Origin: Christiangramia gaetbulicola
GTDB taxonomy: Bacteria; Bacteroidota; Bacteroidia; Flavobacteriales; Flavobacteriaceae
Length of the DNA stretch: 64,000 bases
Reading direction: 5' to 3'
Assembly: GCF_003054225.1 (NCBI RefSeq)
Contig: NZ_QBKQ01000003.1
Span: forward strand, 744,001 to 808,000
Part shown: positions 26,048 through 60,655 of the stretch, piece after piece
Numbering within the stretch: the first letter of the stretch is position 1
Layout of the letters: each line of letters opens with the position of its first letter
Notes under the pieces: model-generated
Database searches by the model: none
What the model saw: only the letters and a program-made list of their open reading frames with translations
What the model was told of the DNA's origin: nothing
Position numbers and translations under genes: made by a program

Positions 26048-27189
26048 TGCAAGAAGCTCAAAATACAATTTCTTTTATCCGGGATTATTATGGGACTAAC
26101 GATTTTATCCCGTTACATGAACCACGATTTCTCGGTAATGAAAAAAAATATCTCAATGATGCAATAGATTCAACATTTGTTTCTTCAGTAGGTATGTATG
26201 TAGATAAATTTGAAGACATGATGACACATATCACAGCAACGAACAAGGCGGTGGCTGTGGTTAATGGTACAGCAGGTATTCAAATAGCTCTGAAATTGGT
26301 TGGTGTAGAAAAAGGTGATGAGGTATTGACCCAAGCTTTAACTTTTGTAGCTACAGCAAATGCAATTTCATATAATAATGCCGAGCCTGTTTTTTTGGAT
26401 GTAGATAGAGATACAATGGGCTTAGCTCCACATGCGATAAGTGAATTTCTTCAAAATTATGGAGAATTGAAGGAAGATGGTTGCTATAATAAACAAACAG
26501 GAAAGAAAATAGCGGCCTGTTTACCTATGCACACCTTTGGTTTTCCTGCTAGAATTGACGAAATAGTAAATATTTGCGAAAAATGGAATATTCCTGTAGT
26601 TGAAGATGCAGCAGAATCTCTTGGTAGCACCTTCAATGGTAAGCCTACAGGTAGTTTTGGTGATTTAGGTGTTTTTTCATTCAATGGTAATAAAATTGTA
26701 ACATCTGGTGGTGGTGGGGCCATTGTTACAAATGATGTAGAAATGGGAGTAAAGGCTAAATATCTAACAACAACTGCTAAAAAGCCTCATGCCTATGAGT
26801 ATTTTCATGATGAGTTGGGGTATAATTTTAGAATGCCTAATTTAAATGCTTCTTTGGCTTGTGCGCAATTAGAGAATCTTGATATGTTTTTACGAAGTAA
26901 ACGGGAATTAGCCTTGGGATATGCCAATTTTTTCGCTGATACTAATATTAAATTTAGAAGTGAATCTCCAAATACCAAAGCAAACTACTGGTTAATGAGT
27001 GTTGAACTTGAAGATAAGCAGGCAAGGGATAATTTTTTAAAAATCACGAATGAATCCGGGATTATGACACGCCCTATCTGGAAACTTATGTACAAATTAC
27101 CTATGTATGAAAACTGCTATAGGGATGAGCAGAAAAATGCGGAATATTTGGAAGATCGAATAGTAAATATAACTAGTAGTGTTAGATAA
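26047..27189 (+). CDS. legC: LegC-type sugar 4-aminotransferase
   Basis: A 380-residue DegT/DnrJ/EryC1/StrS aminotransferase. It begins with F-I-R-D-Y-Y-G-T-N-D-F-I-P-L-H-E-P, matching the LegC subgroup that aminates the 4-keto-6-deoxy-GlcNAc nucleotide. The PLP lysine is Lys216 in S-F-N-G-N-K-I-V-T-S-G-G-G-G, and the carboxylate-binding D-A-A-E-S-L-G is intact. It lies between the dehydratase and an acetyltransferase, as pathway order requires. Its stop overlaps the next gene by 11 bases. Confidence 0.9.
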   Translation: MQEAQNTISFIRDYYGTNDFIPLHEPRFLGNEKKYLNDAIDSTFVSSVGMYVDKFEDMMTHITATNKAVAVVNGTAGIQIALKLVGVEKGDEVLTQALTFVATANAISYNNAEPVFLDVDRDTMGLAPHAISEFLQNYGELKEDGCYNKQTGKKIAACLPMHTFGFPARIDEIVNICEKWNIPVVEDAAESLGSTFNGKPTGSFGDLGVFSFNGNKIVTSGGGGAIVTNDVEMGVKAKYLTTTAKKPHAYEYFHDELGYNFRMPNLNASLACAQLENLDMFLRSKRELALGYANFFADTNIKFRSESPNTKANYWLMSVELEDKQARDNFLKITNESGIMTRPIWKLMYKLPMYENCYRDEQKNAEYLEDRIVNITSSVR

Positions 27190-27811
27190 ATTAGTGACGA
27201 TTGTTGGATATTCCGGCCATGGCTTGGTGGTAGCAGACGCTGCAGTAGAATCAGGTATTAAGGTTAAATATTACGTTGAAAAAAAAGCTTCAAAATACAA
27301 TCCTTTTAATTTAGAATATTTAGGAGATGAGAGTAAGCATGATTTTACAGGTTTCAATAAATCTAATCATTACATATTAGGAATTGGTAATAATTATATA
27401 AGAAGAAAAGTTGTAGCGTCTTTAATAAAGCGAGATATAAAAATTATTAATGTAATTCATCCTAATTCTAGTTTTTCACGTTATATGAAAATCGGACATG
27501 GAAATTTTATTTCTAGAAATGTTTCAGTAAATATTGGTGTGGAGATTGGAGACTATACAATTTTAAACACCTCTTCTATTATAGAGCATGAATGTAGAAT
27601 TGGAGATTATAGTCATATAGGCCCCGGGGCGACCCTTGCCGGTAACGTAATTGTAGGAGAAAATAGTTTTATTGGAGCTAATAGTGTAATTAAACAAGGG
27701 GTTAAAATAGGTGACAATGTTGTTATAGGTGCGGGTACAGTGGTTATTTCCGATGTTATTGATGATAAAACTATAGTTGGTAATCCTGGTAGATACTTAA
27801 TGAAAAGATGA
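27179..27811 (+). CDS. NeuD/PglD-type sugar acetyltransferase (LegH role)
   Basis: A 210-residue left-handed beta-helix acetyltransferase with a GTG start. The N-terminal Rossmann-like part carries I-V-G-Y-S-G-H-G, which binds the nucleotide sugar, and the rest is hexapeptide repeats ([I/V]-G-x-x-x-x) with the catalytic His likely in I-E-H-E-C-R-I-G-D-Y. NeuD/PglD/LegH enzymes N-acetylate UDP- or GDP-4-amino sugars, which is the step needed after LegC. A role in sialic acid O-acetylation is the alternative. It overlaps its neighbours on both sides. Confidence 0.85.
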   Translation: MLDKLVTIVGYSGHGLVVADAAVESGIKVKYYVEKKASKYNPFNLEYLGDESKHDFTGFNKSNHYILGIGNNYIRRKVVASLIKRDIKIINVIHPNSSFSRYMKIGHGNFISRNVSVNIGVEIGDYTILNTSSIIEHECRIGDYSHIGPGATLAGNVIVGENSFIGANSVIKQGVKIGDNVVIGAGTVVISDVIDDKTIVGNPGRYLMKR

Positions 27812-28650
27812 ATACTGTATTAGTAACATATATATATCCGGAGGCTGTAAAATTTTTTCCTGACTTTATTAAGACAGTTAATGAGCAAACCAATCAAAAT
27901 TTTACTATTCATATTTTCAATGACGGAGTCAAAAATGTAAAAAAGTTTTTTCATGGTTTATCAGGAGGTGTAGAAATAACAAATTTGGAAGGAAGTATTT
28001 CTGAGATTAGATTTAAATCACTTGAAATTCTGAAGAACTCCAAATCAGATTTTATTATTTTTCAGGATATTGATGATTTGATGTCGAAAAATAGAATTCA
28101 AATAACACTTAAATTGCTTGAAAATAGGGCACTAGTATGTAATGATTTAAGTTTATTCTCTAAAGGTGAAATTAAAGAAACTAATATTTGGCAAAAGCGT
28201 CTGGGGAAGATATTTGAGTTTAATTACAAATTTTTGGAAGATAAAAATATTGTAGGTTTCGGAAATACAGCAATTAGAAGAGAACTACTCAACTTTGACC
28301 TAAAGATAAGTAATACACCAATTGCGGTTGACTGGTTTGTTTTTTATCAAATTTTACTAAAGCATCAGCAAACTGTGTTATTCACAAGTGAATGCACTAC
28401 TATTTATAGACAACATGAAGATAATATCATTGGAATTACTGATGACTTATCTACAGAAAGACAATTAACAATTTTAAATGGCAAAATTGCTCACTATAAA
28501 GCTTTAAACGAAATTGGAATAAACTTTTCTTCAGATTTAGAAAAGATTGAGGATCTTAATGAAAGATTAAAAATATCTAATAATATCCATAAAAAGCCAA
28601 ACACTGAGGCTTTTTGGTGGGAACAAATTAATTTTTATGAAACAAATTAA
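27808..28650 (+). CDS. Family 2-like glycosyltransferase inside the nonulosonate operon
   Basis: A 280-residue GT-A fold protein beginning M-N-T-V-L-V-T-Y-I-Y-P-E-A. It carries F-I-I-F-Q-D-I-D-D-L-M as the probable metal-binding D-x-D segment near residue 93, and Y-R-Q-H-E-D-N-I in the acceptor half, both typical of GT2 enzymes. No membrane helix. It sits between the acetyltransferase and the NeuB-like synthase, overlapping both by a few bases, so it is co-expressed with sugar supply and probably acts on the same glycan. Donor and acceptor are unknown. Confidence 0.8.
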   Translation: MNTVLVTYIYPEAVKFFPDFIKTVNEQTNQNFTIHIFNDGVKNVKKFFHGLSGGVEITNLEGSISEIRFKSLEILKNSKSDFIIFQDIDDLMSKNRIQITLKLLENRALVCNDLSLFSKGEIKETNIWQKRLGKIFEFNYKFLEDKNIVGFGNTAIRRELLNFDLKISNTPIAVDWFVFYQILLKHQQTVLFTSECTTIYRQHEDNIIGITDDLSTERQLTILNGKIAHYKALNEIGINFSSDLEKIEDLNERLKISNNIHKKPNTEAFWWEQINFYETN

Positions 28651-29692
28651 ATTCGGAAATAGGGAAATTGGCAATTATAGAGAACCTTACATAATTGCTG
28701 AGATAGGAGCAAACCATAATGGAAATATGGATCTTGCAAAAGAAATGATCATATCAGCTAAAGAAGCTGGAGCCGATTGTGTCAAATTCCAGTCCTGGAC
28801 TCCAAAATCTTTAATATCTAAAGAGGAGTATCAAAATAATCAAGTTTATAATGATTCGAAAAAGAAGCATTTTGGCTCCTTAAAGGAAATGGTAACTAAA
28901 TATGCTTTAACCGATGAACAGCATAGAGAGCTAAAGTCATTTTGTGATAAAAATAATATCGAATTTGCTTCCTCTCCTTTTTCGGTGGAAGAAGCCAGAC
29001 TTTTAAATGACATTGGAGTTTCTTTTTTTAAAATTGCTTCGATGGATATAAATTATATCGATTTTCTAAAGGAAGTTGCTTCATTTAAGAAACCGATGAT
29101 AATATCTACCGGAATGGCAACTATAGCTGAGATTGAAACAGCTGTAAATGCATGTAAGGAAGCAGGAAATGATCAAATAGTTTTACTTCATTGTATTTCT
29201 ATCTATCCTCCAGAATACGAGGATATTCATTTGAATAATATTTCAATGTTGCGAAATACATTTAATATGCCTATTGGCTTTTCAGATCATACTATTGGGA
29301 CTGCTATTCCTTTAGCTTCAGCTGCATTGGGAGCATGCGTTATTGAAAAGCATTTTACATTAGATAAGGATTTACCTGGATGGGATCACCAGGTATCAGC
29401 AAATCCAATGGAATTAAAAATTATTTGCGAAGAATCAAAAAATATAGCGAAATCTTTAGGTAATTATCAAAGAACCGTTTCTGAAGCGGAGGAGCTTAAA
29501 AAAGAAAAGTTTAGAAGGAGTTTAGTTGTTAAGAGAGATTTGAAGAAGGGTGATATATTGAAAAAAGAAGATCTTACGGCAAAACGTCCCGGAACATTTA
29601 TTGCTCCCGATAAAATGGAGTATGTTTTAGGTAGAGAATTAAATACAGATATTTCTGAAGATGCAATATTAAAATGGGAAAATTTATATTAG
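28637..29692 (+). CDS. legI: Nonulosonic acid synthase (NeuB/LegI family)
   Basis: A 351-residue NeuB-family enzyme that condenses a mannosamine-type sugar with phosphoenolpyruvate to form a nine-carbon acid. Motifs: I-A-E-I-G-A-N-H-N-G near residue 20, D-C-V-K-F-Q-S-W at about 47-54, and G-F-S-D-H-T-I-G near residue 216. A C-terminal SAF antifreeze-like domain covers about 285-351 (R-R-S-L-V-V to the end). Context points to legionaminic rather than neuraminic acid, because LegB/LegC-like genes precede it; sequence alone does not settle NeuB, LegI or PseI. Confidence 0.88.
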   Translation: MKQIKFGNREIGNYREPYIIAEIGANHNGNMDLAKEMIISAKEAGADCVKFQSWTPKSLISKEEYQNNQVYNDSKKKHFGSLKEMVTKYALTDEQHRELKSFCDKNNIEFASSPFSVEEARLLNDIGVSFFKIASMDINYIDFLKEVASFKKPMIISTGMATIAEIETAVNACKEAGNDQIVLLHCISIYPPEYEDIHLNNISMLRNTFNMPIGFSDHTIGTAIPLASAALGACVIEKHFTLDKDLPGWDHQVSANPMELKIICEESKNIAKSLGNYQRTVSEAEELKKEKFRRSLVVKRDLKKGDILKKEDLTAKRPGTFIAPDKMEYVLGRELNTDISEDAILKWENLY

Positions 29693-29696
29693 AATA

Positions 29697-30743
29697 ATGA
29701 CCGATTTTCAAGATAAATTGATAGAAGAGAACGAAAGTATTTTAACAGCTTTGAGAAAGCTAAATGATATACGTGATGTAAGTAGACTTATATTATTTGT
29801 CAAGGATCAGAGCAATAAAGTGATTGGTTCATTAACAGACGGAGATATTAGGAGGTCTCTGGCGAATGAAGGTGATATTAGCAAGCCTGTTGGCCAGATA
29901 TGCAATAAAAATTTTTTCTACGAAGAATTCTCAGATTCTTTTATCAATCTTTCGTTTTATAGAAAAAAAAACATCAAGATATTACCATTATTGGATTCAG
30001 ATAAAAAGCTCGTAAAAATTATTGATCTTGAAAATCAAATTTCGGTTCTCCCTATGTCAGCTATGATAATGGCAGGTGGAAGGGGAAAACGTTTAAGTCC
30101 AATGACAGATAAAACACCCAAACCAATGCTCGACTTGGGTGGAAAACCAATTATAGAACATAATATTGATAAATTAATTTCTTTTGGAATTAACAAAATC
30201 TATATTTCGGTAAAGTATTTAGGTGAACAAATTGAATCTTATTTCGGGGACGGCAGTAAAAAGGGAATTGAAATAGAATATATTTGGGAAGAAGAACCAT
30301 TAGGTACAGCTGGAGCTCTATCACTTGTAGATAAATTTGAAAGTGAATATGTGCTTCTTATGAATAGTGATTTATTTACAAATGTTGATTTGGAAGATTT
30401 GTATATTGATGCTAAAAACTCAAAAGCAGATATGGCTGTAGCTTCTACCGAATTTAAAATTGATGTTCCATATGCAGTTTTTGAAACTAATGGAAGTTCA
30501 GTTACCGCTTTTAAAGAAAAGCCTTCATATGTATATCATAGTAATGCCGGTATCTACATAATGAAGAGAGATCTGATCAAGAGAATTCCAAAAAATGAAT
30601 TTTATGATATTACCACCTTAATGGAGGAATTAATTGCAGAAGGAGGTAAACTTATACATAATCCTATCAGGGGTTATTGGATTGATATAGGTAAACCTAT
30701 TGATTATAAACAAGCACAAGAATTTGTAAAACATTCAAAATGA
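29697..30743 (+). CDS. ptmE: PtmE-like nucleotidyltransferase with N-terminal CBS domains
   Basis: A 348-residue fusion. Residues about 1-115 form a CBS-pair (L-F-V-K-D-Q-S-N-K-V-I-G-S-L-T-D-G-D-I-R-R-S is typical), and 120-348 a nucleotidyltransferase with M-A-G-G-R-G-K-R-L-S-P-M-T-D-K-T-P-K-P-M-L. This architecture is that of Campylobacter PtmE, which makes GDP-GlcN(Ac) to start the GDP-linked legionaminic acid pathway. The CBS pair may sense adenine nucleotides. Its presence argues that this pathway uses GDP- rather than UDP-sugars. Confidence 0.85.
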   Translation: MTDFQDKLIEENESILTALRKLNDIRDVSRLILFVKDQSNKVIGSLTDGDIRRSLANEGDISKPVGQICNKNFFYEEFSDSFINLSFYRKKNIKILPLLDSDKKLVKIIDLENQISVLPMSAMIMAGGRGKRLSPMTDKTPKPMLDLGGKPIIEHNIDKLISFGINKIYISVKYLGEQIESYFGDGSKKGIEIEYIWEEEPLGTAGALSLVDKFESEYVLLMNSDLFTNVDLEDLYIDAKNSKADMAVASTEFKIDVPYAVFETNGSSVTAFKEKPSYVYHSNAGIYIMKRDLIKRIPKNEFYDITTLMEELIAEGGKLIHNPIRGYWIDIGKPIDYKQAQEFVKHSK

Positions 30744-31414
30744 TAGCAATAATTCCTGCTAGAGGGGGGTCGAAAGGTTTACCAGGGAAAAATATTCGCT
30801 TATTGGATGGTAAACCTTTAATTGCATATACGATTGAAGCTGCTAAAAATTCAAAATATATTTCCAGATTAATTTTAAGTACAGATGATCCGGAGATTGC
30901 CGCAGTAGGTAAGCAATATGGGGCAGAAGTTCCTTTTTTAAGGCCTGAATATTTAGCATCAGACACAGCCAAAGCATTAGATGCATATTTATATACCATA
31001 GATAAAATTTTCGAATTAGAAGGTTTAGAAATAACTGAATTTATCGTTTTACAGCCAACTAGTCCTTTTCGTATAGGTAGGCATATTGATGAAAGCATTC
31101 AAATGTTCAATACTAAAAACGCCGATTCTGTAATAAGTTTTTGTGAGGAACAGCATCCAATAGTTTGGCATAAATATGTGGATGACGAAGGTAAAATTTC
31201 ATCAATTTTCGATGAGCGTATAAGAAACAGGCAGGACGAAAAGAAAACTTACTTTCCCAACGGTGCAATATTTATTTTTAAAAAATCCATTTTGCAGCAG
31301 GGTCAATATTATACAGAGAATACTTACGCGTATGTAATGTCTCGACAATCGTCGATTGATATAGATACTTTGGAAGATTTCAAATATGCTGAGTATTTAA
31401 TATCTAAACTTTAA
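30740..31414 (+). CDS. legF: CMP-nonulosonate (legionaminate) cytidylyltransferase
   Basis: A 224-residue CMP-sialate synthetase family enzyme. It shows I-P-A-R-G-G-S-K-G-L-P-G-K-N-I at the start, S-T-D-D near residue 49, and L-Q-P-T-S-P-F-R at about 103-110. It activates the nine-carbon acid with CTP for transfer. It is shorter than NeuA proteins with an esterase domain, so it is cytidylyltransferase only. It overlaps ptmE by four bases and ends the sugar-supply operon. Confidence 0.9.
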   Translation: MIAIIPARGGSKGLPGKNIRLLDGKPLIAYTIEAAKNSKYISRLILSTDDPEIAAVGKQYGAEVPFLRPEYLASDTAKALDAYLYTIDKIFELEGLEITEFIVLQPTSPFRIGRHIDESIQMFNTKNADSVISFCEEQHPIVWHKYVDDEGKISSIFDERIRNRQDEKKTYFPNGAIFIFKKSILQQGQYYTENTYAYVMSRQSSIDIDTLEDFKYAEYLISKL

Positions 31415-31494: not shown

Positions 31495-32730
31495 ATGCGA
31501 TTTAAATCAAATGTAGCCGTTAATTTTACTATAAGTAGTATTTTCAAAACTATTTCCGGGATGGCTATTAGTTTAATAGCTATAAAAGTTATAGGACCGG
31601 AGAAATTAGGATTGTGGCAAGCTGCTTTAATTATTAAACCCTATATAGGTTTCACTCAGTTAGGGCTTACTCAGGGGTTGGGAAGACAACTACCTTTTTA
31701 TTTGGGTAAAAATGATCAAAAGAAGGTAAAGAAATATGCGGCTAGTGCACAATATGTTACAATATTATATACAATATTTTTTCTAATACTAGCAATCTTC
31801 CTGTCTGTTTTTGTAGCCTCCAATGCTGAAGAACAGTTGATTTATTTAACAGCAGGAGTTTTTATTTCTACAATGTTCGTAGATGATTTTCTTTCATCCA
31901 CTTATAGATCATCAAAAAGTTTTGCAGATTTATCCAGAGTATACATTATTTCTTCTCTTTTTGCTTTTTTGCTATCTCCACTAATCTTTTACCTTGAATT
32001 TTCAGGATATTTAATAATGCTTTTAATTCATAGTCTGGCTTCCACAATTCTATTGGTGGTGTATAGACCCATTAGAACAAAATCCAAATTTTTTAAAAAA
32101 ATCTATATAGAGAATATTAAAATTGGTTTTCCTATGCTTTCATTGAATTATTTGCGAAGTTTACCAGATACCTATCCAAAAATTTTTATTGTATTCTTTA
32201 TTTCTACTACAGCATTAGGGCTTACCGCGCCGGCTAATGCAGCTTTAACAGCTTTCAGCGTACTTCCTGCAGCCCTGGCAAAGTATATAATGCCAACGAT
32301 GACCTTTGATTACGCCAAATCAAATGACAAAATTGTTATATGGAATAAGATTAAAAAAATTTCATACTACTTGAGCATTTTTGGACTTGCTGGTCTTTTG
32401 TCTTTAATTTTCATACCGTATATCATAGAGAATTATTTTCCAAAATACGAGGAGGCAGTATTTATTACTATAATTGCTGTAATTATTGGTTTTTTTAGAA
32501 TGTACGCTCTTATATTTCAGGTTTTTAATACATTGAAAAGATATAACGAACAATTTAAAGTTTCTGTAAGTAGAAATCTATTATATATCCTGATACCAGG
32601 ATTTTTATTTTATGCAGCTCCCAAAGAGAAAGGCTTATCCTATATTTTTATTGGAGTTTTAATAGCAGAATTTATTTCCACTGGTATTACTTTTTACTAT
32701 GTTCATAAAGTTACCCATGACGAAAAATGA
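31495..32730 (+). CDS. Wzx-type polysaccharide flippase
   Basis: A 411-residue, strongly hydrophobic protein with roughly 10-12 membrane helices, matching the MOP/PST exporter family. Near the N-terminus it has V-I-G-P-E-K-L-G-L-W-Q-A-A-L and further on G-L-T-Q-G-L-G-R-Q-L-P-F-Y-L-G, a loop pattern common in Wzx proteins. It should flip undecaprenyl-linked repeat units across the inner membrane. It is the only flippase in the window and directly follows the nonulosonate genes. Substrate specificity is not readable. Confidence 0.85.
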   Translation: MRFKSNVAVNFTISSIFKTISGMAISLIAIKVIGPEKLGLWQAALIIKPYIGFTQLGLTQGLGRQLPFYLGKNDQKKVKKYAASAQYVTILYTIFFLILAIFLSVFVASNAEEQLIYLTAGVFISTMFVDDFLSSTYRSSKSFADLSRVYIISSLFAFLLSPLIFYLEFSGYLIMLLIHSLASTILLVVYRPIRTKSKFFKKIYIENIKIGFPMLSLNYLRSLPDTYPKIFIVFFISTTALGLTAPANAALTAFSVLPAALAKYIMPTMTFDYAKSNDKIVIWNKIKKISYYLSIFGLAGLLSLIFIPYIIENYFPKYEEAVFITIIAVIIGFFRMYALIFQVFNTLKRYNEQFKVSVSRNLLYILIPGFLFYAAPKEKGLSYIFIGVLIAEFISTGITFYYVHKVTHDEK

Positions 32731-32788
32731 GATAACGATAGGAAATAAACTTTTTACAAAATTTAGTATTTGCTTTTTTAAATAAAAT

Positions 32789-33772
32789 ATGAATTTATTC
32801 GTCCTATCAACACCTTCCCAAGCATTTTTTCTTTCTAGAGCTCCTGAATTGTTGGAGAATGCTATTGTTATTGCTACTGTTACTGATAAAACAACTGCAT
32901 CAAAGATATTTGAACATCTTCAGGAATTTGAATTTGAATATACCCTTATAGTCTATATGGTAGATAACAATGATTGGCTTAAGCCTCTCAAAATTCTTTA
33001 CTTTAGAATTTGGTTATTTCAATTTAAAAAAAAATTTAAAACCTTTCAAAATGTTTATATAGGTAGTTATAGTAATATTTATCACCTTAGTATTATTGGT
33101 GAATATGAAAAAAAAAGTAAGATTTCGCTTTTATATGATGGAATGCAGATAATTTCTGTAGCATATAATAGGAAGCTTAATAATAGCGAAGTAAGGAGTT
33201 TACCGAGGGTTTTTCGCCAATTGAAATTCAAACAACCAAAAATTCCATCTCTAAATTTTGTTGGTCCGTTTACTCTTGATGTTAATTCCAGAGATACTTC
33301 AAAAAGTTTGAACAGAAAAAACCAAAATGAACATCCTAAATTAGACGAAACAGAGGTCATATTTGTAGGGCAACATTTGGTGCAGTTGGAGATCGTCTCG
33401 AACGATTTCTATTTAAAGTGTTTGAGAGGTTTGGTTAAAAAATTTCCGAATAAAAAAGTTTTATATATACCTCATCCAAGAGAAAATAAAGTTAATCTTG
33501 AGAAGATTTCAGAATTTTTAGAAATAAAAACTTTTAATGGAATATTTGAGGAAGAGTACTTAAATAGTAAAGTTTTTCCAAAGACTGTAGTCTCTTTTTA
33601 CAGTTCTGTATTGGGGAATTTATGTTATCTGAGAGCAGAAACAGATTTGTATGCTATTGCTATTCCTGAAGCCAATTTTCTTAGAAAAGAGTTATATGAT
33701 AATTACCAGGTAACCTTTTCTTTTCTAAAACAGCTGGATTCGCCTAAAATAAGTATCATCGATTTTCAATAA
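32789..33772 (+). CDS. Bacterial (poly)sialyltransferase-like glycosyltransferase
   Basis: A 327-residue protein not easily named by overall similarity, but it carries in order the three short motifs shared by bacterial polysialyltransferases and GT52-like sialyltransferases: an acidic-Gly site (Tyr-Asp117-Gly118), the HP motif (His229-Pro230 in Y-I-P-H-P-R-E), and the paired serines (Ser272-Ser273 in F-Y-S-S-V-L-G). A short N-terminal fold begins M-N-L-F-V-L-S-T-P-S-Q. It lies right after a CMP-nonulosonate pathway and flippase, so I infer that it transfers the CMP-activated nonulosonic acid. Confidence 0.65.
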   Translation: MNLFVLSTPSQAFFLSRAPELLENAIVIATVTDKTTASKIFEHLQEFEFEYTLIVYMVDNNDWLKPLKILYFRIWLFQFKKKFKTFQNVYIGSYSNIYHLSIIGEYEKKSKISLLYDGMQIISVAYNRKLNNSEVRSLPRVFRQLKFKQPKIPSLNFVGPFTLDVNSRDTSKSLNRKNQNEHPKLDETEVIFVGQHLVQLEIVSNDFYLKCLRGLVKKFPNKKVLYIPHPRENKVNLEKISEFLEIKTFNGIFEEEYLNSKVFPKTVVSFYSSVLGNLCYLRAETDLYAIAIPEANFLRKELYDNYQVTFSFLKQLDSPKISIIDFQ

Positions 33773-33930: not shown

Positions 33931-36294
33931 ATGCTAGGAACAAAAGCTGAAACACTACAATATATATCTGAAAATGGATTTCCAGTACCGGACGTACATT
34001 TTTTCACTGTTCATGAATGGAATAATTTTAAAGATAATGTTATTTCTAATATTTCTAATAAATATGAAAGCGTCACATATTTAGCAGTACGAAGTAGTTC
34101 CAGGGCAGAAGATACAGAAGTTGATTCTATGGCGGGAGCTTTTGAAAGTATCTTAAATGTGAATTATAAAATTAATGGTGAACTTTCAACAGCAATTGAT
34201 ACAGTGATCAATTCTTTTGACAATAATCCGGAGAACCAGGTCTTAATACAACCTATGGTGGAGGATGTTAGGATGAGTGGTGTCATAATGACCAAATCTT
34301 TAGATGACGGTTCACCATATTATGTCATTAATTTCGATGATACGACAGGCAAGACAGATACCGTCACTAGCGGGAATTCTATCAACAAAACGGTATATGT
34401 CTATAATGGTTTTAAAGATAAAGATTTTGATTCCCCATATTTATTAAAGGTTCTAAAAGTTGTAGAAGAATTAGAATCCCTTTATAAGAATTTGCCTTTA
34501 GATATTGAATTTGCATTGAATAATAAAAATGAAGTTTTCATCTTGCAGGTACGACCAATTACTACTTCTACAAATTGGAAGAATAAAGCGAATAAATTGG
34601 TTTCAGAAAGGCTTCCATATCTTGAAGATTTTGTACAGCAATTAATGACTAGGAGAGTGGATATTTATGGTGAAAAAACCCTCCTGGGAATTATGCCTGA
34701 TTGGAATCCTGCAGAAATGATTGGTGTTGTGCCACATCCGCTTGCAATGTCCTTATACCGTGAGCTTATTACTCGAAGGGCTTGGAGTTTGGCTAGGGAA
34801 GAAATGGGTTATAAAAAAATGCCAGATGTAGAATTAATGGTTTCGTTATTTGGCCGGGCGTATATAGATGTGCGTAATAGTATGAACTCATTTTTGCCGG
34901 AAAAATTAAGCCCAGAAATTTCTGAGAAGCTTATTAACGCTTATATACAAAGGCTGGAAAATAATCCTCATTTGCATGACAAAATCGAATTTGAGGTTGT
35001 ACCTACTGCTTATGATTTTAAATTTGAAGAAAATCTAAACAATCGGTATCCAAATTTGCTGAACGAAGAAGAAATCAAGGAGTTTAAAAACTTTTTAGTA
35101 GAATTGACTCAAAATGCTATTGAAGACACAGAAGGCAATACGTTAAACAAAGCTATTGAATTAATTGAATTATTGAAAACCCTACAAGAGGAAAACTTGA
35201 ATAAAAAGCTTGTTACTCCTTTTTCAATTTCAGATCACGTAAATACACTCAAAAATCAATGTGTTAAGTATGGAACAATACCTTTTTCAATAACTGCCAG
35301 GCATGGCTTTATAGCGGAATCACTATTGAGATCAGCTATAGCTTGTGGAGCTATAGAAGAGGAAAGGGTGAAGGCATTTAAGAGAAGCGTGAAAACTATC
35401 TCTACAGAGCTTAGCACTGATTTTTACGAAGTGTGTAACGAAAATCTTGAAAAAGATAAATTCATGCAGAAGTATGGTCATCTTAGGCCAAACAGTTATG
35501 ATATACTATCACCATGTTACAAGAACAGACCTGATTTATTAGATGGTGATCCTCAAAAACCAGGTGAGCACGAAGTATTTCAGTTAAGTGATCAAGAGCG
35601 TAAAAATTTAAATATATTATTGCGAGATCACGGTTTTGACAGAATTAATGCAGATGATATTTTTAAGTATGCGTCTAAGGCCATAAAAGGTAGAGAATAT
35701 CATAAATTCATCTTTACTAAACACCTGTCTGCTATCATAGAATATATAACAGAATGGGGTGAGTTAATTGGTTTTTCTAAAAAGGATCTAGCAATGCTTA
35801 CCTTAGATGATGTTCAAAGTGTTTTATTTGAACCGATCACCAAGGATTTAAAAGTTTTCTTTAAACGTAGAATTAAAAAAGCAAAGAAATCTTACAGTGT
35901 AGCAAATTCTTTTAAATTAAACTATTTAATACGTTCTCGAAGAGATGTTTATATTGCACCAATGCAAAGAAGTGCACCAAATTTTATTGGCAATAAGAGG
36001 GTTGAAGGTAAAATAGTATTTCTTAATCCGTTCATAAAAGAGATCCCAGATTTGGAAGGTAAAATTATATGTATAGAAGGCGCGGACCCTGGATATGATT
36101 GGATCTTCTCAAGAAAAATAGGTGGTCTTATTACAAAATTTGGAGGTGCTAATTCACATATGGCTATACGCTGTGCTGAATATGATCTTCCTGCAGCAAT
36201 TGGATGCGGAGAACAACCTTTTAATAAGCTAATAAAGGCCGGTAAGGTATTGTTAAATTGCCAAGGAAAACGTTTAGAGCCACTTACAATTTAA
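33931..36294 (+). CDS. PEP-synthase-like phosphotransferase, probable L-glutamine kinase (Cj1418-like)
   Basis: A 787-residue protein with the two ends of a PEP synthase/PPDK: an ATP-grasp part (about 1-210, V-R-S-S-S-R-A-E-D-T near 52, closing I-L-Q-V-R-P-I-T) and a C-terminal swivelling phosphohistidine domain with His743 in G-G-A-N-S-H-M-A-I-R. Between them is about 450 residues that do not look like the PEP/pyruvate TIM barrel. This layout and size match C. jejuni Cj1418, which phosphorylates the amide of L-glutamine using ATP. The next two genes are the other two enzymes of that pathway, which is the main reason for the call. A phosphonate-related or other phosphotransferase is the alternative. 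Confidence 0.78.
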   Translation: MLGTKAETLQYISENGFPVPDVHFFTVHEWNNFKDNVISNISNKYESVTYLAVRSSSRAEDTEVDSMAGAFESILNVNYKINGELSTAIDTVINSFDNNPENQVLIQPMVEDVRMSGVIMTKSLDDGSPYYVINFDDTTGKTDTVTSGNSINKTVYVYNGFKDKDFDSPYLLKVLKVVEELESLYKNLPLDIEFALNNKNEVFILQVRPITTSTNWKNKANKLVSERLPYLEDFVQQLMTRRVDIYGEKTLLGIMPDWNPAEMIGVVPHPLAMSLYRELITRRAWSLAREEMGYKKMPDVELMVSLFGRAYIDVRNSMNSFLPEKLSPEISEKLINAYIQRLENNPHLHDKIEFEVVPTAYDFKFEENLNNRYPNLLNEEEIKEFKNFLVELTQNAIEDTEGNTLNKAIELIELLKTLQEENLNKKLVTPFSISDHVNTLKNQCVKYGTIPFSITARHGFIAESLLRSAIACGAIEEERVKAFKRSVKTISTELSTDFYEVCNENLEKDKFMQKYGHLRPNSYDILSPCYKNRPDLLDGDPQKPGEHEVFQLSDQERKNLNILLRDHGFDRINADDIFKYASKAIKGREYHKFIFTKHLSAIIEYITEWGELIGFSKKDLAMLTLDDVQSVLFEPITKDLKVFFKRRIKKAKKSYSVANSFKLNYLIRSRRDVYIAPMQRSAPNFIGNKRVEGKIVFLNPFIKEIPDLEGKIICIEGADPGYDWIFSRKIGGLITKFGGANSHMAIRCAEYDLPAAIGCGEQPFNKLIKAGKVLLNCQGKRLEPLTI

Positions 36295-36301
36295 AACTTT
36301 T

Positions 36302-36922
36302 ATGCAAAAGCTCATTATTGGTATAAGTATGAGAGAAGCTAATGCAGCTAGTTACGATGAAAAGCGTGATGCAATAGCACGGGATTGGTATAGGTTTATG
36401 AAGGAGATTATGCCAAATGCAAATTGGATACTTTTGCCAAATATTGAAGAAGAAATTATTGAATATATCGAAAATTGGAATATAAATGCATTTATTCTAA
36501 CCGGAGGTGAAAATCTAAGTATTTCTAAAGAAAGAGACGACACTGAGAAGCTTATTTTTCAATACTCTCAGGCTAATTCTCTTCCTGTTTTAGGTATTTG
36601 CAGAGGATTTCAAGCTATTTTTAAATGGTTAGGAGGAGAAATTGAACAACGAAATGATAGGTTTTCGGTATTTCATGTAGCGACCCGACATCAGATAATT
36701 ATCAATAATAAAGTTGAAGAGGTTAACTCTTACCATTCTAATGCACTAATCGACAGGTCTAAGCCTGAGATGTTAAAGGTTATTGGTAGGTGTAAAGAAG
36801 ATAATACTATTGAGGCTTTTCAAGGAAATGGTTTACTTGGATTAATGTGGCATCCTGAAAGGGAAGATATATTTAGTAAATGGGAAGCACGAATGATAAA
36901 AAAATTATTTAAATATGAATAA
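36302..36922 (+). CDS. Class I glutamine amidotransferase-fold hydrolase (Cj1417-like)
   Basis: A 206-residue protein with a complete amidotransferase triad: nucleophile Cys100 in G-I-C-R-G-F-Q, then His184 and Glu186 in W-H-P-E-R-E. It has no synthase partner domain and resembles gamma-glutamyl hydrolases. In C. jejuni, Cj1417 removes glutamate from gamma-glutamyl-CDP-amidate to leave cytidine diphosphoramidate. Size, fold and position between the kinase-like and nucleotidyltransferase genes (overlapping the latter by 8 bases) all fit. A general gamma-glutamyl-GABA hydrolase role is less likely here. Confidence 0.8.
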   Translation: MQKLIIGISMREANAASYDEKRDAIARDWYRFMKEIMPNANWILLPNIEEEIIEYIENWNINAFILTGGENLSISKERDDTEKLIFQYSQANSLPVLGICRGFQAIFKWLGGEIEQRNDRFSVFHVATRHQIIINNKVEEVNSYHSNALIDRSKPEMLKVIGRCKEDNTIEAFQGNGLLGLMWHPEREDIFSKWEARMIKKLFKYE

Positions 36923-37664
36923 ATATAAAGGATTAATACTAGCAGCAGGGAGAGGGTCAAGAATGGGTAGTACTACTGAAAGATCGCATAAATGCCTAAC
37001 AATTTTAGAAGGTAAGACTTTATTAGATTGGCAACTTTCAGCCTTGAGGGCAGCAGATGTCCAGGATATAACCGTGGTTAGAGGTTACAGATCAGAAATG
37101 TTACAAGGAGATTTCAAAACAGCAGAAAACCCAAGGTGGTCTGAAACGAACATGGTTGGAACACTGTTCTGTGCACCTAAAATGGAAACAGAGACCATTA
37201 TATCCTATTCAGATATCGTTTATTCTAGTGATCATATTGAAAAATTGAAAAATCAGGATGGAGATATAGTAATAACTGCCGATAAAAAGTGGCTTGATCT
37301 CTGGTCTACCCGATTTGAAAATCCTTTGGACGACGCAGAAAGTTTTAAAACAAACGATGGTGTTTTAACCGAAATAGGAAATGACGAAGATAGTATAGAT
37401 AATATTCAGGCACAGTATATGGGCTTAATCAAGTTTACTCCAAGAGGTTGGGATATAGCCTTTGGTACTTATAATTCTTTAAATAAGGATGAACAGGATA
37501 AACTAGATATGACTTCCTTTTTATCCATGCTAATGGAAAAAACAGACATTAAAGTTGCATTTATAGAAGGCAGATGGTGTGAAGTAGACTCTAACGATGA
37601 TGTAAAGGCATATGAAATAAAATTGAAGGAGAATAAAAACTGGTCGCATGATTGGAGAAAATAA
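36915..37664 (+). CDS. LicC/PntC-like cytidylyltransferase (Cj1416-like, CTP:phosphoglutamine)
   Basis: A 249-residue nucleotidyltransferase. It opens with L-A-A-G-R-G-S-R-M-G (about 9-18) and H-K-C-L, keeps the Lys used for phosphate binding, has E-T-N-M-V-G-T-L near residue 77 and Y-S-D-I-V-Y as metal site, and ends with E-V-D-S-N-D-D. The N-M-V-G-T-L segment places it near the choline-phosphate/aminoethylphosphonate cytidylyltransferases and Cj1416 rather than sugar-phosphate enzymes. The proposed reaction is CTP plus phosphoglutamine to gamma-glutamyl-CDP-amidate. Stop and start overlap with the unknown gene downstream by 17 bases. Confidence 0.78.
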   Translation: MNKYKGLILAAGRGSRMGSTTERSHKCLTILEGKTLLDWQLSALRAADVQDITVVRGYRSEMLQGDFKTAENPRWSETNMVGTLFCAPKMETETIISYSDIVYSSDHIEKLKNQDGDIVITADKKWLDLWSTRFENPLDDAESFKTNDGVLTEIGNDEDSIDNIQAQYMGLIKFTPRGWDIAFGTYNSLNKDEQDKLDMTSFLSMLMEKTDIKVAFIEGRWCEVDSNDDVKAYEIKLKENKNWSHDWRK

Positions 37665-38223
37665 AATTATATATAAGTATTTAAATGAGGATGTGTTTAA
37701 TAATAAGATTAACTATTCTTATTCCAAATTTGGCGGAATTGAATTTCTCAAATCCTGGGAAGAAAAAAGGGATAAGTGCCTAGATATTCTGTTGAAAAAT
37801 AATGCCGGAAGCCATAAAACTGAAGATGATTCTAGAACAAATATTCAATTGGAACGATGGTTAAATAATGATATAGTTTTCTCTGAACTTGATAAGGTTC
37901 ATTTGTTGATAAAAAGATTTGAGGTAACCAAAAGGATTTATGAATTCTACGATGCTGATTTTCGCCGTATAAATAAAGATGTGACTTATAATAACTTGAA
38001 TCTTTATATCAATTTTGGGTTAGTAATGGTTAAACTTTTTGACAGATATAAACATTTGCAGTACTTAAATTCTCTTTTAAAATTAGTTGATATTATTTGC
38101 AGCAGAATAAACGAATTGAATCAAAATGCAGAAACCTCCAATTACAGAGCTGCATCCAAACTATTATGGGCAGAAAAAAGAATTATTAAAGAATTGTGTG
38201 AAAATAAAAACATTGATTTATGA
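37648..38223 (+). CDS. Unknown 191-residue helical protein in the phosphoramidate-type operon
   Basis: I do not recognise this protein. It is soluble, Lys/Asn-rich and predicted mostly helical by eye, with no signal peptide, membrane helix, P-loop or obvious metal site. It overlaps the cytidylyltransferase by 17 bases and the formyltransferase-like gene by 4, so it is translated with them. Because it lacks a Walker A motif, it is not a counterpart of the CDP-amidate kinase Cj1415. It could be a binding partner of a neighbouring enzyme or a new enzyme of the pathway; neither is shown. Confidence 0.7.
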   Translation: MIGENKIIYKYLNEDVFNNKINYSYSKFGGIEFLKSWEEKRDKCLDILLKNNAGSHKTEDDSRTNIQLERWLNNDIVFSELDKVHLLIKRFEVTKRIYEFYDADFRRINKDVTYNNLNLYINFGLVMVKLFDRYKHLQYLNSLLKLVDIICSRINELNQNAETSNYRAASKLLWAEKRIIKELCENKNIDL

Positions 38224-38930
38224 AGATTTTACTTCTAGCAGGAAACACACTTAGATCTAATTCGTATGCGCAATATTTGGCTGCCAGCTCTTGCAAAGTG
38301 GAAGGGCTATTTTACGGATTTGAGGAAAGAGAATATAGTGTACCTAAATTAAATCGAGACACTGAGCAATTCTTCGATGATAATAATATTCTTATTCCCG
38401 ATTTTCAAATAGGTATTGAAAATGTGTTTGAGCGTAATAAATGGAAATATCAGCATATTAATGATTATGACGTTAATTCTCAAAGTGTAGTAGAGCGGGT
38501 AAAGTCGATATCTCCAGATTTAATAATTTTTTCAGGTTATGGAGGTCAAATTCTTAGAAAAAATCATTTTGACTTGGATCTACCTTATGTACATATGCAC
38601 CCGGGAGACATTCCTTTAGAAAGGGGGAGTACAACAATTTATTATAGCATATTAAATAGACAATCCTGTACAGTGACTGCCTTCTTGATGAATGAAAAAA
38701 TTGATGCAGGGAATATTATTACAAAAAGTCATTTTCCCGCTCCCACTGGAGGGGTAAATATTGACCAATACTATGATAATATTATTAGGGCAAATTGCTT
38801 AATAGATGCAATTACCGCATTATCCAAAAAAAATGAAATTACTCCCTTTCCTTCGCACGATAATAGTCTAGAATATTACGTCATTCATCCAATCCTTAAA
38901 AATATTGGAATTTTATCTCTCAAAAAATAA
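38220..38930 (+). CDS. Formyltransferase-fold protein with altered catalytic Asn
   Basis: A 236-residue protein of the methionyl-tRNA/GAR formyltransferase fold. The core motif reads H-M-H-P-G-D-I-P-L-E-R-G (from His125): catalytic His127 is present, but the usual Asn two residues before is His125. The later Asp is kept (Asp162 in K-I-D-A-G-N-I-I). The N-terminal nucleotide-sugar/folate-like part is short. Such folds transfer formyl groups from 10-formyl-THF or, with changed active sites, carry out other C1 or hydrolytic chemistry. It is embedded between an unknown gene and a TagF-like transferase. N-formylation of an amino group is possible, not shown. Confidence 0.75.
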   Translation: MKILLLAGNTLRSNSYAQYLAASSCKVEGLFYGFEEREYSVPKLNRDTEQFFDDNNILIPDFQIGIENVFERNKWKYQHINDYDVNSQSVVERVKSISPDLIIFSGYGGQILRKNHFDLDLPYVHMHPGDIPLERGSTTIYYSILNRQSCTVTAFLMNEKIDAGNIITKSHFPAPTGGVNIDQYYDNIIRANCLIDAITALSKKNEITPFPSHDNSLEYYVIHPILKNIGILSLKK

Positions 38931-38932
38931 CT

Positions 38933-40129
38933 ATGTTATTTCTATATATTGATCCCGGTACGGGGAGCTTGTTAATAAGCCTATTAATAGGTTTTATTAT
39001 GACCATTACATTTTCAATACGTAATTTTTATTATAAAGTAATACATTTTTTTGCGGGAAAAGAATATAAGGGTACAAATGATTTTTCTGGAGAATTGGTG
39101 TTTTTTAGTGAGGGGAAAAACTACTGGAACGTTTTTTACCCAGTTTTAGATGTACTCATCAAGCATAATAAAAGATTCGTATATTTAACTGCAGACCGGG
39201 AAGATCCCGGACTACAAATCGATTCTGAATATTGTTCTTCCCATTATTTAGGTAATACAAATCAGGCTTTCTTTGTATTAAATAAATTGAAAGCGAAAAT
39301 GTGTATAACCACTACTCCTCAATTAGATATTCTAAACTGGAAGCGTTCGAAAAACGTAGATCACTATTGTTATCTATCTCACGCCCCCATGGATATCCAT
39401 GCAAATAAAAAATTTTCATTTGATTATTATGACTCTGCACTTTGTGGAAATGATTTTCATATCGCAAATCTTCGCCAACTGGAACGTGATAGAAATAGCA
39501 GAAAAAAAATTCTTATGAAAACTGGTTGTACCTACTATGATTTGAAGAATGAAGGAGCTAACGAACAAAAAGAACACATTTTAATTGCGCCAACCTGGGG
39601 TGATAGATCATTTTTTGTAGAACATGGAGAGCTATTATTAGAGAAATTATTAGAGCATAAACATCGTGTTTTATATAGACCTCATCCTCAATCCTGGATT
39701 TCTGAAAAAGAGCTCTTGAGTATTATCTCTTCCAAATTTGGTAAAAATGAACTTTTCGAAATTGATAAGAGGGTTGATAATGTACATGCATTATCTAAAG
39801 CAAAAGTATTGATAACAGATTCAACTTCCGGGATAATCTATGATGTGGCATTTTTGCAGAAAATACCAATTATAGCTGTTGATTTTGAATGGGACGATGG
39901 TGGTTACGAATCATCGGATCTAGAAAATCCTCCATCTACAAAATATCTTTTGGAAGATTTTGGAAGAACAATTACAGAAAATGAAATATATAATATTCAT
40001 AATATTATTGGAGAAGTATCAAATGTAAAAATGACGGAGGAAATAATAGATAAGCATATTTTTAATTTTCAAAATGCAGGTAGTGTGGCTGCTAAACAGA
40101 TTCTATCAATTTTTAAAGGATTAAAATAA
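38933..40129 (+). CDS. TagF-like CDP-glycerol-type phosphotransferase
   Basis: A 398-residue protein with one N-terminal membrane helix (after Y-I-D-P-G-T-G-S-L-L) and a GT-B-like domain of the CDP-glycerol glycerophosphotransferase family. Family motifs: Y-R-P-H-P-Q (His251) and T-D-S-T-S-G (Ser297 region), the latter before A-F-L-Q-K-I-P. TagF proteins take a phospho-alcohol from a CDP carrier. No CDP-glycerol synthase (tagD) is in the window, while a CDP-amidate-type pathway is directly upstream, so it could move a phosphoramidate or related group from its CDP carrier. That is inference. Confidence 0.78.
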   Translation: MLFLYIDPGTGSLLISLLIGFIMTITFSIRNFYYKVIHFFAGKEYKGTNDFSGELVFFSEGKNYWNVFYPVLDVLIKHNKRFVYLTADREDPGLQIDSEYCSSHYLGNTNQAFFVLNKLKAKMCITTTPQLDILNWKRSKNVDHYCYLSHAPMDIHANKKFSFDYYDSALCGNDFHIANLRQLERDRNSRKKILMKTGCTYYDLKNEGANEQKEHILIAPTWGDRSFFVEHGELLLEKLLEHKHRVLYRPHPQSWISEKELLSIISSKFGKNELFEIDKRVDNVHALSKAKVLITDSTSGIIYDVAFLQKIPIIAVDFEWDDGGYESSDLENPPSTKYLLEDFGRTITENEIYNIHNIIGEVSNVKMTEEIIDKHIFNFQNAGSVAAKQILSIFKGLK

Positions 40130-42372
40130 TGTTTTTAATAAACTTTCTTAAAAATATCCTGGAGTTTTTCTACGATATAACTTTTAGTTATGGGTGGTCT
40201 ATAATTCTATTGAGCCTGGCTACACAAATTATTATGCTTCCTCTTTTCTGGATAGCAGATAAAATTCAGGATTTGGAGAAAGCCAGAAAAGATAGAATGC
40301 AGCCTGCTCTGGATTCCATAAAGAATGTTCAAAATAAACAAGAGAAATATCACTATACACGGGAGATATACCGTAAAAATAACTATAGTCCGTTTTATTC
40401 ATTAACAGGTTTAGTTGGTTTACTAATTCAAATTCCATTTTTTCTTGCGGCTTATTGGTTACTTCTGGATTATTATCCACTTATTGGAATATCTTTTGGG
40501 CCAATCAGCGATTTATCTCAGCCTGATGAGTTGCTTTTAATCGCAGGTATATCAATTAATATATTACCCTTCTTAATGACCTTTGCTAATTTATTAGCGG
40601 CATATTTTTACACAAAAAACCAAGATAAAAGTGAGAAGATACAGTTGGTAGTTATAGCTATTGTATTTCTCGTTCTACTATATAACTTATCTGCGGCGCT
40701 AGTATTATTCTGGACTATGAATAATATTTTTGCAATAGGTAAAAATTGGTTTTTGTTAAGAATCAAATCAACCAAAGCTGATTTAATTCTCTCAAATAGC
40801 TTCTCGAAACTTCTTAAGATCCTAACTTCTTTCTGGAAGGAGTATGGTTTTGTGGTTTTTCTATTAATGTTTTCAGTTTTTCCCCTTCTCTCAATTTATT
40901 TTGAAAATATAGAAGAGCTTTACTTGACTCAATCTTCTATATTATCACTTATAATTGTCATTTTAATTTTTACCTTAGGAATAACCATTGCAATTAAGTT
41001 TCTGGTCAAAAATAATTATAAAACCCAGATCCTAGTGTTTACTGGTTTATCACTGTTTTTTCTCTTTGGTCATTTTAGAAATTTACTTGCAGCAATGGGG
41101 CTGGAAGGCAAACTTGCTATATTTTTTCTAGGATTGGTTTTTCTGCTCTTACCAGCAATAATTATCTATCTTACTTTGAAAACTAAAAGGAATCTAAAGG
41201 CATTATCTAACGTAATTAGTATCCTATCTCTTTGTTTGTTCTCTATAGTTATTTTGAGAATAATGTCCTTTGGTATAAGTAATAGACAAACCCTTCTACA
41301 CAACAATTCACAGACAACAAAACTGATTAGCGCAAATAAAGAACAGTTACCTGATATTTATTATATTATTCTTGATGGTTACGCTAGTTCACAAATTTTA
41401 GAGGAGGACTTTAATTTTGATAATAGTGAATTTGAAGATTATTTAATCGAAAAAGATTTTTATATAGCTTCAAATAGCAGGTCTAATTATATGAACACCT
41501 TTCTTTCACTGGGATCAACCTTTAATATGAATTATATTAACTTTTTAAGTGATTCCTTGCCAAAAGGATCTACCAACAGGAAGATCCCATATGATATGGT
41601 ATTAAATGGTAATGTAATGAAATATTTGAAAGACAAAGGTTATAAAACTGTTCATTTTGGTAGTGTTTTTGGAGGAACCAAACAAAATATATACGCTGAT
41701 TATAATTATAAATATTCAAGCTATATGGGTGAATTCACTACTAATTTTTTACACACCACTATACTATCACCCTTAGTAAGCCATTTTGCGGGTAAAGAAT
41801 ATCGAAAAACTATTTTATATACTTTTGATCATCTAACGAAATTAAAAAACATAGAAGATCCCAAATTTATTTTTGCACACATAGTTTCCCCTCATCCTCC
41901 CTATGTTTTTGATGAAAATGGTGAAGAAATACCAAAATCTGTAAACCTGGATAACAGCTGGAATAAAAATGAAAAGAGGTTTTACATAGATCAGTTAAAA
42001 TTTTTAAATAAAAAGGTAAGAATTCTAACAGAGGAGATTCTGAATATATCAGAAAATAGTGTGATAATCATACAATCTGATCATGGTCCGGCATTTTTGG
42101 AAGAGGACGATAAAAATGCCAGTCCAGAATTTTTAGAAGAAAGAAGTGAAATATTTAATGCTATTTATATGAATAGCTCTAATAGTAACAATAAGAATTT
42201 ATATAAAGATATTTCCTCGGTGAATACTTTTCGTGCTGTATTTAATACGATCTTTGACGAGGATTTTAAAATTCTTGAAGATTCTACTTATTATTCCACT
42301 TATAAAAATCCTTATGATTTTACTAATATTACAACAACTTTAGATAGTTTAAAAATTTCGAAAAAGGAGTAA
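40129..42372 (+). CDS. YidC/Oxa1-like membrane domain fused to an alkaline-phosphatase/sulfatase-fold domain
   Basis: A 747-residue fusion in one uninterrupted frame. Residues about 1-215 resemble YidC/Oxa1: a first helix leading into I-I-M-L-P-L-F-W, a charged amphipathic loop (Q-D-L-E-K-A-R-K), then P-F-Y-S-L-T-G-L-V-G-L-L-I-Q-I-P-F-F-L-A-A-Y-W-L-L and two further helices. Residues about 235-395 are extra membrane helices. From about 408 an alkaline-phosphatase-superfamily domain follows, with Y-Y-I-I-L-D-G-Y (Asp416), S-P-H-P-P-Y and S-D-H-G-P (Asp651-His652). Phosphotransferases such as lipoteichoic acid synthase share that fold. It starts on the last base of the TagF-like gene. I infer an outward-facing phosphotransferase or translocation step. 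Confidence 0.8.
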   Translation: MFLINFLKNILEFFYDITFSYGWSIILLSLATQIIMLPLFWIADKIQDLEKARKDRMQPALDSIKNVQNKQEKYHYTREIYRKNNYSPFYSLTGLVGLLIQIPFFLAAYWLLLDYYPLIGISFGPISDLSQPDELLLIAGISINILPFLMTFANLLAAYFYTKNQDKSEKIQLVVIAIVFLVLLYNLSAALVLFWTMNNIFAIGKNWFLLRIKSTKADLILSNSFSKLLKILTSFWKEYGFVVFLLMFSVFPLLSIYFENIEELYLTQSSILSLIIVILIFTLGITIAIKFLVKNNYKTQILVFTGLSLFFLFGHFRNLLAAMGLEGKLAIFFLGLVFLLLPAIIIYLTLKTKRNLKALSNVISILSLCLFSIVILRIMSFGISNRQTLLHNNSQTTKLISANKEQLPDIYYIILDGYASSQILEEDFNFDNSEFEDYLIEKDFYIASNSRSNYMNTFLSLGSTFNMNYINFLSDSLPKGSTNRKIPYDMVLNGNVMKYLKDKGYKTVHFGSVFGGTKQNIYADYNYKYSSYMGEFTTNFLHTTILSPLVSHFAGKEYRKTILYTFDHLTKLKNIEDPKFIFAHIVSPHPPYVFDENGEEIPKSVNLDNSWNKNEKRFYIDQLKFLNKKVRILTEEILNISENSVIIIQSDHGPAFLEEDDKNASPEFLEERSEIFNAIYMNSSNSNNKNLYKDISSVNTFRAVFNTIFDEDFKILEDSTYYSTYKNPYDFTNITTTLDSLKISKKE

Positions 42373-60049: not shown

Positions 60050-60655
60050 ATGTATAAGTCCATTATAAAGCCTCTATTAGATTTCCTCGTTGCGCTGATT
60101 GGCCTTATTTTTTTAAGCCCATTACTTATAATATTTACTATTTTGCTTTCTATGGTAAATGGGGGGAAGCCATTTTTCTTCCAAAAGAGGCCTGGCAAAA
60201 GAGGAAGGAGCTTTCAAATTGTTAAGTTTCGTACAATGACAGATGAAAGAGACGAAGATGGGAATTTATTGCCTGACGCCTCAAGATTGACTTCAGTTGG
60301 ACAATTTGTAAGAAAGACCTCCATCGACGAGATTCCACAATTGATCAATGTTGTCAAAGGGGATATGAGTATTGTAGGTCCGAGACCCTTATTACCAGAA
60401 TACCTTGAGCTTTATTCTGAAAGACAGAAAAAGAGACATGAAGTAAAGCCTGGTATTACCGGCTGGGCTCAGGTAAATGGGAGAAATGCGATCAGCTGGA
60501 CCCAAAAGTTCGAGTATGATGTTTGGTATGTTGAGAACTTATCTTTTAGTTTAGATTTGAAAATCCTGTTCAAGACAATAAAAAAAGTATTGATTTCAGA
60601 AGGAATAAATACTCAGAATATGGCTACAACAGAGCCTTTTAACGGAAACAATTAA
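60050..60655 (+). CDS. pglC: Initiating phosphoglycosyl transferase (PglC-like)
   Basis: A 201-residue small monotopic phosphoglycosyl transferase of the bacterial sugar transferase family. It has one N-terminal reentrant/membrane helix, then F-Q-K-R-P-G (about 43-48), V-K-F-R-T-M, the catalytic Asp-Glu in S-I-D-E-I-P-Q-L-I-N-V, and G-P-R-P-L-L-P-E-Y. Size matches PglC rather than the larger WbaP/WcaJ. It transfers a UDP-sugar phosphate to undecaprenyl phosphate, starting the repeat unit. The next three genes make the matching UDP-diNAc-bacillosamine. Confidence 0.92.
   Translation: MYKSIIKPLLDFLVALIGLIFLSPLLIIFTILLSMVNGGKPFFFQKRPGKRGRSFQIVKFRTMTDERDEDGNLLPDASRLTSVGQFVRKTSIDEIPQLINVVKGDMSIVGPRPLLPEYLELYSERQKKRHEVKPGITGWAQVNGRNAISWTQKFEYDVWYVENLSFSLDLKILFKTIKKVLISEGINTQNMATTEPFNGNN

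Follow-up and report, generated by a model that had tools for sequence, protein, structure and literature searches.

Can a surface-sugar cluster of a member of Bacteroidota produce the donor of a phosphorus–nitrogen (P–N) bond, a type of bond that is rare in biology? The question is raised by Christiangramia gaetbulicola, of which we analyzed a stretch of 64,000 nucleotides, hereafter the window (assembly GCF_003054225.1, contig NZ_QBKQ01000003.1, positions 744,001–808,000, forward strand). The original prediction had placed here a three-gene module for the synthesis of cytidine diphosphoramidate (CDP-amidate), and its three open reading frames are located where it had them, all on the plus strand: a dikinase-type phosphotransferase (K, 33931–36294), a protein with the class I amidotransferase fold (H, 36302–36922), and a cytidylyltransferase resembling LicC and PntC (C, 36915–37664). 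The genes had been described as overlapping, which is true of H and C, sharing 8 bp, and not of K and H, which are separated by 7 bp. We conclude that this cluster very probably makes a rare P–N donor that had until now been assigned to Campylobacter alone, and that the finding is a variant of a known pathway together with two unstudied partner genes.

Three enzymes of the putative donor module

In Campylobacter jejuni, the proteins Cj1415, Cj1416, Cj1417, and Cj1418 convert glutamine, ATP, and CTP to CDP-phosphoramidate 3'-phosphate (PMC11800397). Our comparison with this set rests on family models, folds, gene linkage, and the published reactions. The window shares with the glutamine kinase Cj1418, the hydrolase Cj1417, and the cytidylyltransferase Cj1416 the same three folds, encoded by adjacent genes in a surface-polysaccharide cluster; Cj1415 is a further kinase.

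K (787 aa) contains the Pfam domains PPDK_N and PEP-utilizers and matches the NCBIfam family NF004508 over its full length with 927 bits (cut-off 501). In an AlphaFold2 (AF2) model based on 77 sequences (predicted local distance difference test, pLDDT, 94.5), an ATP-grasp part is followed by a helical substrate domain and a swivelling domain carrying the phospho-acceptor His743, which lies within the motif GGANSHM and is unchanged across 77 homologues. The middle domain, approximately residues 215–660, is predicted to be all-helical and lacks an alternating barrel; the barrel that binds phosphoenolpyruvate (PEP) or pyruvate, named beforehand as the structure that would speak against the prediction, is thus not seen. 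The top full-length fold match is the rifampin phosphotransferase RPH-Lm (5hv1), which has the same succession of ATP-grasp, helical substrate, and phospho-His domains, while PEP synthase and pyruvate phosphate dikinase align to K chiefly over some 200–300 residues. K is not a rifampin phosphotransferase by other measures: the identity is only about 15–20%, the rifamycin model gives 36 bits against its cut-off of 999, and the gene neighbourhood is different. We also considered PEP synthase itself and rejected it on the helical middle domain and a TIGR01418 score of 53 bits against a cut-off of 740. We regard K as a probable L-glutamine kinase.

Some relatives of K are longer and have an additional nucleotidyltransferase-like domain of about 240 residues at the N terminus (loci L032, 9415–12525; L033, 8898–12026; L035, 8864–12010; L114, 9239–12403); this domain is a second, diverged C-like domain. 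Another full-length homologue, with 33.5% identity, is encoded at 673–2991 of MT837632.1, a 9.5-kb record that carries no annotation and was submitted as a bacteriophage from human feces.

H (206 aa; GATase/Peptidase_C26 in Pfam) has the triad Cys100, His184, and Glu186, which the original prediction had named and which is unchanged in 76 of 76 homologues. Among NCBIfam families, the C. jejuni-type gamma-glutamyl-CDP-amidate hydrolase, NF045546, ranked first (E 3e-27), 46 bits above GMP synthase, and it ranked first also for all five H relatives that we scored (95–123 bits). From these sequence matches, H is probably a gamma-glutamyl-CDP-amidate hydrolase.

C (249 aa) belongs to NTP_transf_3 in Pfam and gives weak general matches in NCBIfam. 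LicC is a CTP:phosphocholine cytidylyltransferase, and both LicC and PntC cytidylylate phosphoryl compounds other than sugars. When the profile of the C family was compared with solved structures, LicC (1jyk) and 6pd1, which we take to be PntC, were closest and came ahead of the sugar-1-phosphate enzymes; the clustering with the latter that had been set down as contradicting the prediction was accordingly not observed. The best of the sugar nucleotidylyltransferase models, TIGR03992, scored 58 bits against a cut-off of 292. C differs from LicC and PntC in always being found together with K and H and in a conserved set of residues, among them Trp130, Arg133, Asp140, and Glu142, that marks it as a family of its own. 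C is probably a CTP:phosphoglutamine cytidylyltransferase.

Distribution and linkage across bacteria

The original prediction had put its weight on the co-occurrence of the three folds, and the genome surveys bear this out. Separate profile searches of 395 Bacteroidota genomes placed the K, H, and C families in exactly the same seven genomes, far above chance, with a clear gap between members and the next best scores (K at least 850 bits, next 62; H at least 209, next 111; C at least 287, next 168). The probability of two independent sets of seven genomes coinciding is approximately 4e-15, a figure that serves as a guide given the relatedness of the genomes. In all six of the other Bacteroidota genomes with K, H and C lie within approximately 6 kb of it.

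Scanning the K alignment against 84,980 species genomes gave at least 589 pattern matches, at least 576 of them encoding relatives. We combined the best 80 of these matches with the six Bacteroidota genomes and the window and removed one duplicate, giving a set of 86 K loci; because its members were ranked by their resemblance to the K of the window, fractions computed from it are not population estimates. In 76 of the 86 loci, which come from about ten or more phyla, K has neighbours that match the H profile and the C profile. The best 80 include Bacteroidota, Proteobacteria, relatives of Desulfovibrio, a Syntrophomonadaceae bin, Omnitrophota, Verrucomicrobia, Acidobacteria, Planctomycetes, Patescibacteria, Fibrobacterota, and a Prochlorococcus, among others. 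The module is thus widespread in bacterial phyla and not specific to Campylobacter. Both outcomes named as contrary being absent and the linkage of the three genes being kept across phyla, the reading as a CDP-amidate module is supported.

In the vicinity of K, 63 of the 86 loci carry a gene of the Cj1415 type that resembles adenosine 5'-phosphosulfate (APS) kinase. This ties the K family to the C. jejuni pathway, most relatives having a kinase like its fourth enzyme as well. In several K clusters (L036, L078, L085, L086, L094, L099) we observed a membrane protein, conserved and approximately 410 aa long, that is weakly similar to GDSL hydrolases; its gene adjoins the Cj1415-like kinase in the clusters that were read through. 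Genes for CysQ-like 3'-phosphatases occur near K in L031 (5180–5959), L036 (14415–15209), L076 (2767–3582), and L078 (18198–18995), as would be expected if 3'-phosphorylated CMP were a by-product of the transfer.

The module often adjoins genes for nonulosonic acids, sugar aminotransferases, or flagellins, and its annotation there goes no further than "PEP-utilizing enzyme" or hypothetical protein. Sugar aminotransferases are present at many K loci, NeuB homologues lie near K in 17 and flagellins in 8 of the 86, so that both flagellin and O-antigen or capsule glycans are possible targets across the family. The distribution leaves little of the claim that this locus newly extends P–N chemistry to Bacteroidota: its relatives are widespread, and while the capsules of Campylobacter carry O-methyl phosphoramidate, unmethylated phosphoramidate has already been reported in the lipopolysaccharides of Xanthomonas and Shewanella (PMC3907429). 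A review from 2022 labels the glutamine kinase as specific to C. jejuni (PMC9561416). Our literature search, partial in coverage, found no paper describing the K-H-C module outside Campylobacter; a search on flagellin glycosylation islands carrying these genes gave nothing useful, and a paper on the Legionella capsule mentioned phosphoramidate for C. jejuni only.

Two partner genes and their possible role in finishing the donor

The set of three genes is confirmed as far as it goes, but two conserved partners had been overlooked. Clustering of the genes neighbouring K brought up two families that in the window directly follow C on the plus strand: ORF191 (37648–38223), a conserved helical protein, and FT (38220–38930), a protein with the formyltransferase fold. 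Among the 86 K loci, FT is found in 40, ORF191 in 39, and both in 38; in Proteobacteria, the arrangement kinase-ORF191-FT-K-H-C is common. ORF191 appears to be an obligate partner of FT, which adjoins it in all 11 ORF191-bearing genomes that were checked. Strong matches to it occur only in genomes with K: in Bacteroidota, the three strong matches to ORF191 are all in K genomes, two further K genomes have weak ones (E 4e-8 and 2e-4), and one weak match (E 1e-4, in a 660-aa frame) falls outside them. Among 129 genomes of Pseudomonas, the genus of locus L055, ORF191 occurs in six, all within the 14 that bear K.

ORF191 has no Pfam matches. Its AF2 model (pLDDT 89) is all-alpha and gave no match in a fold search of the PDB at E 0.001; a second fold search found partial overlap with alpha/alpha-barrel enzymes (best Z 11.8, root-mean-square deviation 3.0 over 134 residues), which may reflect the general helical arrangement only. 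FT matches Formyl_trans_N and fmt weakly, far under every curated cut-off (fmt 43 bits against 201.5). It shares the fold and the catalytic His and Asp with the methionyl-tRNA and sugar N-formyltransferases and differs from them in that the catalytic Asn is replaced by His in 40 of 40 proteins, changing the NxH motif to HxH.

The loci also contain an S-adenosylmethionine (SAM) methyltransferase family, MTa, which is present in 18 of the 86 and never together with FT (about eight co-occurrences expected; P ~ 2e-6, uncorrected for relatedness). As neither FT nor ORF191 is found alongside MTa, they suggest alternative ways of completing the phosphoramidate; we infer that MTa and FT/ORF191 represent alternative finishing routes, MTa being perhaps the source of the methyl group in Campylobacter.

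What FT and ORF191 act on can be read in two ways. It is plausible, if somewhat short of an even chance, that the substrate of the pair is an amino sugar within this same glycan, modified by N-formylation or a related acylation, and not the phosphoramidate, the linkage of the pair to K then reflecting a shared repeat unit. Amino sugars are indeed the substrates of those formyltransferases of this fold that are known from surface-glycan loci, and sugar aminotransferases are present at many K loci; yet the pair follows K across many phyla despite differing sugar genes, it does not co-occur with MTa, and the catalytic Asn of the sugar formyltransferases is missing from FT. More tentatively, FT and ORF191 might form an unrecognised branch of phosphoramidate metabolism in which the P-NH2 group is finished or transferred in a new way instead of by O-methylation, for example by N-formylating CDP-NH2 or the group after its transfer. 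The conserved pair provides a concrete lead to a new pathway step.

Alternatives, transfer, and the surface glycan

Several observations weigh against CDP-amidate synthesis by K, H, and C. NF004508 carries no name beyond "hypothetical protein," and the 96 bits of H fall under the curated equivalog cut-off of 250 of NF045546; the claim for H is therefore that it works like the C. jejuni enzyme, as a diverged branch and not as a certified equivalog. In ten loci of the 86, the H and C profiles do not both match; several of these are on short or truncated contigs, but a few with sufficient sequence (e.g., L045, L083, and L090) seem to be without H and C. Unlike C. jejuni, the window has ORF191 and FT, a nonulosonic-acid cluster, and neither MTa nor a Cj1415-type kinase. 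A search of the genome for this kinase found none, only two weak P-loop matches, and no MTa methyltransferase is near the module; the original prediction had noted the kinase and methyltransferases as missing. The clusters of L032–L035, all from Bacteroidota, likewise showed no Cj1415-type kinase.

Such differences could mean a homologous but different pathway, with K phosphorylating another amide or amino compound, C making its CDP adduct, and H cleaving off a gamma-glutamyl group or one like it; the group transferred would then not be plain phosphoramidate. The low score of H, the identities of only 30–60% between the K and C members and those of the window, and the additional parts FT and ORF191 are in its favour; we nevertheless consider it unlikely, as the three families, joined in most relatives by the Cj1415-type kinase, reproduce the C. 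jejuni reaction set, the triad of H is invariant, and among the curated families H matches the C. jejuni-type hydrolase best. That a PEP-synthase-like protein, a glutamine amidotransferase, and a sugar-1-phosphate nucleotidylyltransferase, each of a fold common alone, were grouped by chance in a polysaccharide cluster is scarcely credible and is refuted by the co-occurrence in the same seven Bacteroidota genomes, besides the adjacency in 76 of 86 loci and scores far under the cut-offs for PEP synthase, GMP synthase, and sugar nucleotidylyltransferases. Homology, family-wide linkage, conserved catalytic residues, and folds together argue strongly for the synthesis of CDP-amidate by K, H, and C, and we hold this reading with good confidence.

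From the same material we infer what each enzyme acts on, in which order the steps follow, what FT and ORF191 contribute, and which transferase and acceptor glycan are involved. In this scheme, the operon would supply a surface glycan with its phosphoramidate donor: C would couple N-phosphoglutamine to the CMP of CTP, giving gamma-glutamyl-CDP-amidate, and H would hydrolyse glutamate from it to leave CDP-NH2. Because a Cj1415-type 3'-kinase was not found in the genome, the donor is probably either unmodified CDP-NH2 or a derivative of it produced by FT and ORF191. The group would then be moved onto a legionaminic-type polysaccharide made by the surrounding genes; the transferase may be the neighbouring TagF-like protein, a homologue of CDP-glycerol phosphotransferase (Glyphos_transf, PF04464, E 7e-6; 38933–40129, plus strand). 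In TagF-type catalysis, the distal phosphorus of the CDP donor is attacked and CMP released, chemistry that matches the transfer of CDP-NH2 and makes this gene a candidate; TagF-like relatives adjoin K also in L032, L033, L034, L040, and L055. Genes resembling CDP-alcohol phosphatidyltransferases, near the module in L035, L037, L094, L102, and L105, encode another candidate amidate transferase, and sulfotransferase-like neighbours, possible transferases too, were found in 19 of the 86 loci by a loose search.

Downstream of the TagF-like gene, and on the same strand, lies a gene for a YidC/Oxa1-like domain (PF02096, E 3e-25, residues 21–209) with a long C-terminal part (40129–42372). With it ends, at 42372, a tight unit of K, H, C, ORF191, FT, the TagF-like gene, and the YidC fusion, the successive gaps being 7, -8, -17, -4, 2, and -1 bp; a promoter scan scored no higher than shuffled sequence. 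The C-terminal part, for which Pfam gives no match, has by eye the look of the sulfatase/alkaline phosphatase superfamily. On the distant Syntrophomonadaceae contig L040, a YidC-like gene (2195–2863; 33% identity to that of the window over 198 residues) and a TagF-like gene precede K-H-C.

The acceptor glycan likely comes from the nonulosonic acid genes at 24857–31414 (plus strand), which are of legionaminic type and encode LegC-, NeuD-, NeuB-, guanylyltransferase-, and CMP-synthetase-like proteins; LegC matches its family with 535 bits (cut-off 420) and NeuD exceeds its cut-off, whereas the NeuB and PseF models stay below theirs. Between these and K, at 31495–33772 on the same strand, are a flippase-like gene (MatE, E 3e-5, marginally below the model cut-off) and a polysialyltransferase-like gene (A-2_8-polyST, E 1e-7). 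Elsewhere in the window, two polymerase-like membrane proteins with a mutual identity of 51% (52923–54128 and 57532–58770) are encoded in one polysaccharide cluster, and a second LegC-like aminotransferase gene is found with a NeuD-like gene at 60655–62416.

In C. jejuni, phosphoramidate decorations are recognised by phages and affect the interaction with the host. If the reading of K, H, and C is true, such decorations would be a common and overlooked part of bacterial surfaces; if that of FT and ORF191 is true as well, an undescribed surface-glycan decoration would be spread over many phyla.

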